A stretch of 64,000 nucleotides of DNA from Halorubrum trapanicum. GTDB taxonomy: Archaea > Halobacteriota > Halobacteria > Halobacteriales > Haloferacaceae. A program made the translations under genes and the position numbers. The stretch is taken from positions 992,001 through 1,056,000 of the forward strand of contig NZ_AP017569.1 of NCBI RefSeq assembly GCF_002355655.1, read 5' to 3'. This document shows positions 15,739 to 19,197 of this stretch, piece by piece. Positions within the stretch are counted from its first letter, which is position 1; each line of letters starts with the position of its first letter. The notes below the pieces were generated by a model. The model worked only from the letters and a program-made list of their open reading frames with translations. It ran no database searches and was not told where the DNA came from.

Positions 15739-16527
15739 TCATCCGCCGACGAGGTCCTCGAAGACGCGGCGCTGCGCCGCCGCGAGGTGTTCCGAGAACG
15801 TCGCGCGGGCGATGCCGATGGCGTCGGCCACCTCCGTCGCGCTCGCGCCGCGCGGGTGCTCGAAGTAGCCGAGCCGGTGGGCGGTCCGGACCACCTCGCG
15901 CTGCCGCTCCGTGAGCCGTCCGCGGTCGACGACGACCGGGTCCGAGCGGGTGTCGGCCCCGCCGGAGCTCGTGAGCCGTTCGAGTCGGACCGAGCCGCCC
16001 GTCGCCTCCAGCGCGTCGATCACGTCGCCGAGCGGGTCGGCCGCGGGCAGGGAGAGCCCGAGCCGAACGCGGTCCGGCGCCGTCCGGACCGTGACCGACG
16101 AGACGGGGTAGCCGAGAGACTCGACGGCGTCGGAGGGGAACTTCCCGGACGCTCGGCTCCGGCAGCGGTAGACGAGCTCGTCGCCCCCGTCGAAGACGAG
16201 TTCGGCGTCGACGGCGCGGTCGGCGCGGAACTGCGAGACGACCGCGTCGTCGACGCGGACGCGGTCGACGTCCTCCGCGACCGCCCCGGGCGGCAGCGCC
16301 CCCGCCACCGGCGCGGGCGTCGGGTCGCGGACCACGACCTCGACGCGGACGCCGGCCTCGTCGGACCGGCCGGGCGACCGCGGCGCGTCCGACTCGCTTC
16401 GAGCCGCGTCCGATCCGCTTCGAGCCGCGTCCGCGGAGGCGACGCCGTCGGAGCCGGAGGGGCCGGCCGGTCCGGACTCCCGGGGTTCGGGGGCGCCGGA
16501 GTCGGACGAGCGCGACCGCTGTCCCAT
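15739..16527 (-). CDS. HTH_10 (bacterio-opsin activator-type) regulator
   Basis: A 262-residue transcription regulator. The C-terminal 55 residues match the HTH_10 domain of the Bat family: LTERQREVV, GYFEHPRG, ATEVADAIGIARATFSEHL. The N-terminal part is a non-PAS sensor-like domain preceded by about 55 low-complexity residues with short Ser/Asp/Arg repeats (DAARSGSDAARSESDAPRS). It lies between the copper block on its own strand and the divergent desaturase and halorhodopsin genes, so it might control either. It lacks the PAS and GAF domains of true Bat. Its start is 134 bp from the divergent desaturase. Confidence 0.85.
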   Translation of the reverse strand: MGQRSRSSDSGAPEPRESGPAGPSGSDGVASADAARSGSDAARSESDAPRSPGRSDEAGVRVEVVVRDPTPAPVAGALPPGAVAEDVDRVRVDDAVVSQFRADRAVDAELVFDGGDELVYRCRSRASGKFPSDAVESLGYPVSSVTVRTAPDRVRLGLSLPAADPLGDVIDALEATGGSVRLERLTSSGGADTRSDPVVVDRGRLTERQREVVRTAHRLGYFEHPRGASATEVADAIGIARATFSEHLAAAQRRVFEDLVGG

Positions 16528-16661
16528 ATTCCGATCTATCGGTCGAACCCGGAAAAAAAGCGAGCCGAACGAGTACGCGTCGCGGCGGTCCGGCGGACGC
16601 CTTCATAAAGCCCCGTCGAGAGTTGGCGACGACTCACACGGCGCGAGCCCGTGGCACGCAC

Positions 16662-18194
16662 ATGGACGAGGAGTCGCTCCGCGGGCGGTCGGTCGGAGTG
16701 GTCGGGGCGGGCGTCGGCGGGCTCTCCGCGGCGGCCTACCTCGCGGCCGACGGCGCGGAGGTGACGGTGTACGAGCGCGCCGAGCGGGTCGGCGGGGTGG
16801 CCGGCCGGCTGGAGGTCGACGGGTTCCGGTTCGACACCGGTCCGTCGTGGTACCTGCTGCCGGACCTGTTCGAGCGGTTCTTCGACGACTTCGGTCGGTC
16901 GCCCGACGAGTTCTACGAGCTGACCCGGCTCGACCCGCACTACCGCGTGTGCTGGGACGACGGCGACAGCGCCGACGTTCCCGCCGATCCGGACGCGGCC
17001 GCCGACCTGTTCGAGTCGTACGAGCAGGGGGCGGGCGCGGCGTTCCGCGAGTACCTCGACGACGCCGAGCGAGCGTACGACGCCGGGATGGAGCGGTTCG
17101 TCCTCCCCGGGCGGTCGCGGTTCCGCGACTACCTCTCGCTCGACGTGCTCGCCGGGGGGCGGGAGCTGGATCTCCTGTCCAGTCTCGACGAGCGGGTGCG
17201 GTCGTACGTCGACCACCCGAAGCTCAGACAGCTGCTGGAGTACACCCTCGTCTTCCTCGGCGGGTCGCCGCACAACACGCCGGCGCTGTACCAGCTGATG
17301 AGCCACGTCGACTACGGGCTCGGCGTCTACTACCCGATGGGCGGGATGTACGAGGTGATCGAGGCGGTCGAGACGGTCGCCCGCGAGGCCGGCGCCGACG
17401 TCCACACCGGCGTCGAGGTGACGGGGCTGGAGCCGGTCCAGGGGGGCGTCGAGGTCGAGCTCGGCGGCGACCGCTACGTCCACGACCGAGTCGTCTGTAA
17501 CGCGCCGCCCGCGCACGTCGAGCGCGAGCTGCTCCCGGACGGCACCGTGCCGCGGCTCGGCGACTACTGGGAGCGGCGGACGTACGGCCCCTCGGCGCAC
17601 CTGCTGTACCTCGGCGTCGAGGGGGAGCTGCCGGAGCTGGAACACCACACGCTCGCGCTGCCGACGGACTGGGACCCGCACTTCGCGGCGATCTTCGACG
17701 ATCCGGCGTGGCCGACGGGGGAGGTCGAGCCGGTCGTGTACGTGAACGTCCCGTCCCGGACCGACCCCTCGGTCGCGCCCGAGGGCCACGAGGCGGTCGT
17801 GACGCTCGTGCCGCTCGCGCCGGGGCTCGACGACACGCCGGAGCGCCGGGCGGCGCTCAGGGAGCGCGTCCTCGACGCGGTGGCGTCGCGGACCGGCGTC
17901 GACCTCCGCGACCGGATCGTCGCCGAGGAGTCCGCGTGCGTCTCCGAGTTCGCGGAGCGGTTCGACCAGCCCGGCGGGAGCGCGCTCGGGCTAGCGCACA
18001 CGGTGCGACAGACCGGTCCGCTCCGTCCCGGGCCGCGCGTTCGCGGCACCGACCGACTCTACTACGTCGGCGGGAGCAGCAACCCCGGGATCGGCGTCCC
18101 GATGTGCCTGCTCGGCGGCGAACACGTCGCCGACGCCGTCGCGGCGGACGTCAGCGGCGGGCCGTTCGACCGGCTTCCGCTGGTCGGTCGGTGA
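16662..18194 (+). CDS. CrtI-family carotenoid desaturase/oxidoreductase
   Basis: A 510-residue flavoprotein of the phytoene desaturase family. The N-terminal dinucleotide-binding motif is VGAGVGGLSAA (Gly15-Gly20 region), followed by YERAERVGGVAGR and GFRFDTGPSWYLLPDLFERFF. The C-terminal signature YYVGGSSNPGIGVPMCLLGGEHVAD is the carotenoid dehydrogenase FAD-binding motif. It would desaturate a C40 or C50 carotene in the membrane on the route to bacterioruberin and retinal precursors. Which haloarchaeal CrtI paralogue this is cannot be decided from sequence alone. The ATG at 16662 is chosen over an upstream TTG. A TTCATAAAG box lies at about 16602. Halorhodopsin follows 148 bp downstream. 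Confidence 0.9.
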   Translation: MDEESLRGRSVGVVGAGVGGLSAAAYLAADGAEVTVYERAERVGGVAGRLEVDGFRFDTGPSWYLLPDLFERFFDDFGRSPDEFYELTRLDPHYRVCWDDGDSADVPADPDAAADLFESYEQGAGAAFREYLDDAERAYDAGMERFVLPGRSRFRDYLSLDVLAGGRELDLLSSLDERVRSYVDHPKLRQLLEYTLVFLGGSPHNTPALYQLMSHVDYGLGVYYPMGGMYEVIEAVETVAREAGADVHTGVEVTGLEPVQGGVEVELGGDRYVHDRVVCNAPPAHVERELLPDGTVPRLGDYWERRTYGPSAHLLYLGVEGELPELEHHTLALPTDWDPHFAAIFDDPAWPTGEVEPVVYVNVPSRTDPSVAPEGHEAVVTLVPLAPGLDDTPERRAALRERVLDAVASRTGVDLRDRIVAEESACVSEFAERFDQPGGSALGLAHTVRQTGPLRPGPRVRGTDRLYYVGGSSNPGIGVPMCLLGGEHVADAVAADVSGGPFDRLPLVGR

Positions 18195-18284: not shown

Positions 18285-18318
18285 AACCTTACCAGTAAGG
18301 TTAGTACATTTAATAAAT
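18285..18318 (+). promoter_or_regulatory. Halorhodopsin promoter with Bat-UAS-like palindrome
   Basis: AACCTTACCAGTAAGGTT (18285-18302) is a perfect 8+2+8 palindrome immediately upstream of the TATA box ATTTAATAAAT (18308-18318). The ATG is at 18343, so the transcript is nearly leaderless. The core ACC-N2-ACCAGT-N2-GG resembles the UAS ACC-N2-ACTAGT-N2-GG reported for the Halobacterium bop regulon and lies at the same distance from the TATA box. This suggests light- or oxygen-responsive activation by a Bat-type protein. Confidence 0.75.
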
Positions 18319-18342: not shown

Positions 18343-19197
18343 ATGATCGAAACAGCCGCGGCCGACCTGCTCGCAAGCGGAACAGTCCCGCTCGAAATGA
18401 CCCAGACCCAGATCTTCGAGGCGATTCAGAGCGACACCCTCCTCGCCTCGTCGCTCTGGATCAACATCGCGCTCGCCGGCCTCTCGATACTCCTGTTCGT
18501 CTATATGGGGCGAAACGTCGAGGACCCCCGCGCCCAGCTGATCTTCGTCGCCACGCTGATGGTACCGCTGGTGTCGATCTCCAGCTACACGGGGCTCGTC
18601 TCCGGGCTCACGGTGAGCTTCCTCGAGATGCCGGCCGGCCACGCGCTGGCCGGCCAAGAGGTACTCACCCCGTGGGGGCGGTACCTCACGTGGGCGCTGT
18701 CGACGCCGATGATCCTGATCGCGCTCGGGCTGCTGGCCGGGTCGAACACCACGAAGCTGTTCACCGCGGTCGTCGCCGACATCGGGATGTGCGTCACGGG
18801 GCTCGCGGCCGCGCTGACCACGTCCTCGTACCTGCTGCGCTGGGTCTGGTACGTCATCAGCTGCGCGTTCTTCGTCGTCGTCCTCTACATCCTGCTCGCC
18901 GAGTGGGCCGAGGACGCCGAGGTCGCCGGCACCGCGGACATCTTCAACACGCTGAAGGTGCTCACCGTGGTCCTGTGGCTCGGCTACCCGATCTTCTGGG
19001 CGCTCGGCGCCGAGGGGCTCGCCGTGCTCGACGTCGCGGTCACCTCGTGGGCGTACAGCGGGATGGACATCGTCGCGAAGTACCTCTTCGCGTTCCTCCT
19101 GCTGCGCTGGGTCGTCAACAACGAGCGGACGGTCGCCGACGTGGCGTCCGGGCTCGGCTCGGGCTCCCGCGGCGGCGCGGCGCCCGCCGACGACTGA
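18343..19197 (+). CDS. hop: Halorhodopsin (light-driven chloride pump)
   Basis: A seven-helix retinal protein of 284 residues that pumps chloride inward on absorbing light. Helix C reads GRYLTWALSTPM. Thr116, Ser120 and Ala127 occupy the positions of the bacteriorhodopsin proton acceptor, Thr89 and donor; this T-S-A set marks a chloride pump rather than a proton pump. Arg113 is the equivalent of Arg82. In helix G, Asp242 is the counter-ion and Lys246 in MDIVAKYLF binds retinal. The long B-C loop (SFLEMPAGHALAGQ) and C-terminal PADD also match halorhodopsins. Retinal would derive from the carotenoid route to which the upstream desaturase belongs. Confidence 0.97.
   Translation: MIETAAADLLASGTVPLEMTQTQIFEAIQSDTLLASSLWINIALAGLSILLFVYMGRNVEDPRAQLIFVATLMVPLVSISSYTGLVSGLTVSFLEMPAGHALAGQEVLTPWGRYLTWALSTPMILIALGLLAGSNTTKLFTAVVADIGMCVTGLAAALTTSSYLLRWVWYVISCAFFVVVLYILLAEWAEDAEVAGTADIFNTLKVLTVVLWLGYPIFWALGAEGLAVLDVAVTSWAYSGMDIVAKYLFAFLLLRWVVNNERTVADVASGLGSGSRGGAAPADD

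Follow-up and report, generated by a model that had tools for sequence, protein, structure and literature searches.

For Halobacterium, the parts of the literature available to us describe a bop regulon made up of bop, bat, brp, crtB1 and blp, each serving the proton pump. Its upstream activating sequence (UAS) has the consensus ACCcnactagTTnGG, with TT before nGG. The available sections of two studies place UAS sites near bop, brp and crtB1 (PMC1447603, PMC2253796). In Halorubrum, the proline-bearing LOV domain of a BAT protein is a flavin-binding domain that responds to photoreduction as well as to chemical reduction; the accessible part of that work links BAT to bacteriorhodopsin only (PMC4682037). 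For halorhodopsin genes, the accessible part of a further paper states that linkage patterns are absent outside N. pharaonis (PMC1885257). No report of a Bat site on the halorhodopsin gene hop was found in the literature searched, the coverage of which excludes most subscription journals.

The window, i.e., the whole stretch of 64,000 nucleotides analyzed here, contains hop at 18343..19197 on the forward strand (284 amino acids; Pfam Bac_rhodopsin, E 6e-53). Its promoter carries the Bat-UAS-like palindrome AACCTTACCAGTAAGGTT (18285..18302, forward strand) as an upstream element, recognized from its sequence and from its conservation in 44 genomes. The palindrome consists of two perfect 8-base arms flanking CA, and the dyad core CCNNACNNGTNNGG is found within it (18287-18300). 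The TATA-like box ATTTAATAAAT (18308..18318, forward strand), identified by sequence and conservation, follows after a gap of 5 bases, and the A of the ACC lies 57 bases ahead of the hop start. This organization is in agreement with the original prediction, which had placed a palindrome with ACC / ACnAGT / GG spacing directly before the TATA box. The spacing is indeed matched, although the pattern as it was worded conceals that the hop box has TA where the Halobacterium consensus has TT. Just upstream of hop lies a gene for an FAD-dependent, phytoene-desaturase-like protein (16662..18194, forward strand; Pfam Amino_oxidase). This gene is presumably a crtI, and no canonical box was found ahead of it.

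The strict pattern ACC-N2-ACNAGT-N2-GG has a single match in the window, against 0.09 expected from window shuffles. The search of the whole 3.08-Mb genome that had been proposed for this pattern was positive at hop and negative elsewhere, the hop box being the single match. Genome-wide, the pattern is not enriched (one match versus ~4 expected, scaled from the window shuffles), and a regulon defined by it was rejected. The window contains 45 inverted repeats whose arms measure 8 bases and whose loops measure 0-4 bases; therefore, rarity alone is insufficient to make the case. AACCTTACCAGTAAGGTT is the only one of these repeats in which A+T makes up at least half of the bases. The loose dyad CCNNACNNGTNNGG has 60 matches in the genome, mostly G+C-rich, versus 15 for a reversed control pattern.

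The search for hop covered 52 genomes of the genus, and the upstream stretches of the orthologues were compared. A rhodopsin match of some kind is present in 50 of them and a hop orthologue in 44 (71-100% identity). In each of the 44 hop promoters, CC-NN-AC-NN-G(T)-NN-GG stands at an unchanged position; the seven invariant bases are C, C, A, C, G, G and G, and the T is kept in 43. The A of ACC lies 57 bases from the ATG in 34 promoters, 56 in six and 58 in four. These boxes comprise 25 different 15-mers. Information averages 1.98 bits in the eight core columns and 0.27 bits in the 60 columns that precede the box, and in the TATA region the TT at box columns 24-25 is kept in 43 and 44 of the 44 promoters. 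Perfect 8-base dyads are common in such a G+C-rich window (the 45 mentioned above), and the box could on that count be a chance palindrome. This explanation was rejected by the complete conservation of the box against an unconserved upstream sequence, and its probability is negligible. The core reads CC-NN-AC-NN-GT-NN-GG on both strands, a symmetry that points to recognition of the box by a symmetric dimer.

A sister site is found at the other opsin gene of this genome. The promoter of bop (G000:C1:973242-974015), which we take to be archaerhodopsin-like, carries ACCTGACTGGGTTGG 56 nt ahead of the start. The matrix used to look for further sites derives from 26 distinct 16-mers of hop promoters. 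As the window's own site is among them, the score obtained at hop is not an independent one. When 92.5 kb of this genome were scanned with this matrix, the two best sites were those of hop and bop. Within the genus, the matrix reaches at least 13 bits in 18 of the 27 class-1 bop loci, where the match lies 56 nt ahead of the start. It does so too in 10 of the 11 class-2 bop loci (from 10 genomes), L082 being the one that does not score. Nine class-1 loci have a low score or their best match elsewhere. The half-site CCTNACT stands at the place of the box in all 27, and nine of these promoters retain the left half alone. The box is well supported as a Bat-UAS-like element common to hop and the proton-pump opsin gene. 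A zinc-finger gene divergent from bop (L046:4687-5064, reverse strand) resembles OE3095R of Halobacterium, as described in the available part of PMC2253796.

The same matrix also recognizes UAS-bearing promoters of Halobacterium. In 20.8 kb of Halobacterium sp. TGN-42-S1 (L228), it ranks ACCATACTGATTGGGT, 54 nt before the start of bop, first with 18.0 bits. The second match also falls in the bop promoter, 30 bases further in, and the third (11.7 bits) is a site before crtB1, the name that we give to the ORF at 1790-2767 on our reading. The bop sites of Haloplanus ruber (L230) and of L231 are weaker, ranking 4th and 6th among the matches listed. For Halobacterium salinarum DSM 3754 (L229), no box is visible in the ~80-90 bases by which the contig precedes bop.

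The hop box and the Halobacterium UAS have in common the half-sites CCNNAC...GG, in an ACC-N2-AC-N2-GT-N2-GG dyad that deviates at hop by the TA. Both are located just upstream of the TATA box, ~55 nt before the start, within a range of ~50-60 nt that includes hop (57) and the bop of this genome (56), and in both cases a bat gene is present in the genome. The hop box differs in being a perfect dyad and in having a chloride pump gene as its target. Unlike in the Halobacterium regulon, the retinal and carotenoid genes examined in this genome, crtB and blh, are without a box, which bears on the extent of the regulon and not on the nature of the site. None was found in the promoter of either SQS_PSY-family gene or before blh, and in the bac-bat intergenic stretch only the left half CCTAACTGG was seen. 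Co-regulation of hop with an opsin and carotenoid regulon, as originally predicted, is consequently upheld in its opsin part, by the 44 hop promoters, the bop box and the co-occurrence with Bat described below. Its carotenoid part is unsupported in this genome.

The HTH_10 gene predicted 1.8 kb upstream of hop is present at 15739..16527 on the reverse strand, 1816 bases away. It encodes a regulator with DmsR_N and HTH_10 domains (Pfam; HTH_10 E 6e-19) and is DmsR-like, not a Bat. DmsR of Halobacterium has an HTH motif like that of Bat, according to the available part of PMC1447603; the gene here differs in being located by the crtI-like gene and hop. The hop box might be read by this neighbor or by another member of the HTH_10/BAT family, such as a BAT paralogue, with Bat1 as a bystander. 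In favor of the neighbor, the DmsR-like gene (E 1e-50) is present in 24 of the 52 genomes, all 24 of which have hop, and it invariably shares a contig with hop, at a distance of 0.9-2.2 kb. Against it, 20 of the 44 hop-bearing genomes are without this gene and keep the box, by which it was rejected as the sole reader. Its promoter moreover has a different conserved sequence of its own, CCGAACGAGTACG (16565..16577, no strand assigned), in the divergent HTH_10/crtI-like promoter region. This sequence is identical in all 20 intergenic stretches compared, of 24 possible, and differs from the hop box, with an ACNNGT core common to both. Located ~50 nt before the HTH_10 start, it is perhaps that gene's own operator.

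Bat1, a Bat orthologue, is encoded in the bop cluster (G000:C1:976651-978651), 32 kb before hop. It is composed of a receiver, a PAS domain of the LOV type with Pro replacing the reactive Cys, and GAF, BAT and HTH_10 domains. In this composition, and in the motif GRNPRFLQ of its PAS/LOV domain, it is like the Halorubrum BAT with a Cys-less LOV domain, as far as the latter is described in the accessible part of PMC4682037. The motif was found in 29 of the 30 Bat1 loci scanned, including the one of this genome, as well as in those of G019 and G002; it was not found in the Bat locus of G042. Bat1 orthologues (E 1e-100 or better) are present in 34 of the 52 genomes. Ten hop-bearing genomes have none, and nine of these carry a second type, Bat2. 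Bat2 was found in 11 genomes, or 12 if a 42% match in G030 is counted, and differs from the described BAT in its reactive LOV cysteine (GRNCRFLQ, in all 12 loci of the Bat2 search).

Bat1 or Bat2 is present in 43 of the 44 genomes with hop versus one of the eight without it (Fisher 5e-7, relatedness ignored). The first exception is G017, which has hop with neither regulator; this is also the single genome in which the core T of the hop box is lost. The second is G037, in which a Bat2 orthologue (L139, G037:C23:125058-126719) occurs in a genome without hop or bop and is either a relic or a gene with another target. Six genomes have hop, Bat1 and the core of the box without bop. The BAT domain in general is found in all 52 genomes, so its presence does not discriminate those with hop from those without, whereas the Bat1 and Bat2 orthologues do. 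Since Bat paralogues are abundant (eight BAT-domain matches in this genome), the exact reader could be another one, but a reader from this wider family, including the DmsR-like neighbor, is on the whole unlikely.

The co-occurrence also bears on the possibility that the box is an extended core-promoter element, similar to a BRE, without a dedicated regulator. Its fixed distance just upstream of the TATA box would fit such a role. Core elements would however recur widely, and this box is prominent only at hop and bop in the 92.5 kb scanned, is dyad-symmetric and tracks the presence of Bat, which makes this explanation very improbable.

As judged from sequence comparison, AACCTTACCAGTAAGGTT is probably an upstream activating site of the hop promoter belonging to the Bat-UAS class, with Bat1 as its most likely reader here. 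In that case, a site of a known kind would have a new target in hop. The two CCNNAC half-sites, 5 bases upstream of the TATA box, would be bound by a dimeric Bat-type regulator, most likely Bat1 in this genome, which would recruit TBP/TFB. Its effect would presumably be activation and not repression, and the transcription start predicted from this geometry would make the hop transcript leaderless or nearly so. Because of its receiver, PAS, GAF, BAT and HTH_10 domains, the signal sensed by Bat1 would probably be flavin redox and light. The flavin binding and the reduction response described in the available part of PMC4682037 make a redox or light signal plausible for Bat1. With Bat1 acting on both boxes, the expression of hop and bop would be expected to rise together. 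Such a site suggests one light/oxygen regulator for the chloride and the proton pumps.

Outside the genus, the association of hop with Bat takes the form of gene adjacency. A hop match was found in 208 of the 391 genomes of the class. From the 167 matching non-genus genomes, 40 loci were chosen by hand and not at random, 35 genera being represented by one or two each. In 15 of these 40 loci, a box with at least 7 of the 8 core bases lies 50-62 nt before a possible start, the chance of such a box being 1.2% per locus as determined by shuffling. A Bat-type gene is found within ~0.5 kb of hop in nine genomes (G077, G177, G253, G302, G332, G110, G287, G228 and G097), spanning seven other genera, and within the genus it adjoins hop in G042. 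The box is present in eight of the nine hop loci with an adjoining Bat-type gene versus seven of the 31 others (p 0.0006, for these 40 chosen loci). The helix I(T or S)RQT(F or Y)HQHLRAA occurs in the HTH of eight of the nine hop-side Bat proteins, as in Bat1; the helix of the ninth, L193, was not matched by the search pattern used. In L168 (G253), bat and hop are divergent neighbors with no recognizable box between them. The hop genes of three Halobacterium-type genomes (g26) have no box, as seen in one by the scan of the 40 loci and in two by reading; the assignment of g26 to Halobacterium is a probable one, based on its bop sequence.

These pairs also bear on a last candidate, a small zinc-finger protein similar to Brz/OE3095R, acting on the hop box alone or jointly with another protein. 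Brz affects bop and crtB1 in Halobacterium (accessible part of PMC2253796), and the gene divergent from bop is of the CPxCG type. A 14-base dyad would, however, better suit an HTH dimer, and both the adjacency and the co-occurrence favor Bat, so that we regard the involvement of such a protein as improbable. A Bat site on hop, together with hop-bat pairs in several genera, would extend the bop regulon to chloride uptake and would account for the retention of Bat in some genomes that have no bop. The 44 hop promoters would then also provide a natural set in which DNA recognition by an HTH_10 regulator could be dissected.

The box may differ in its spelling according to the type of Bat. Base 13 is A in 33 of the 34 Bat1 genomes and G in eight of the nine Bat2-only genomes. 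On the hop protein tree, however, this corresponds to only about two independent, well-supported contrasts, most pairings agreeing in direction (p 0.5). We tentatively put forward, as one possibility, a joint reading in which Bat is a general regulator of light-driven ion pumps and not a bacteriorhodopsin regulator by origin. Here, hop, an adjacent or distant bat and the CCNNACNNGTNNGG box would form a module that persists without bop; Bat1 and Bat2 would have been swapped, with the spelling of the box shifting along (NAGG with Bat1, TGGG with Bat2). In the loci read, Bat2 is located directly upstream of the second bop class (L125:8069-10613, L122:9525-12040), and in both of them Bat2 and the class-2 bop adjoin a gene for subunit B of an A-type ATP synthase.
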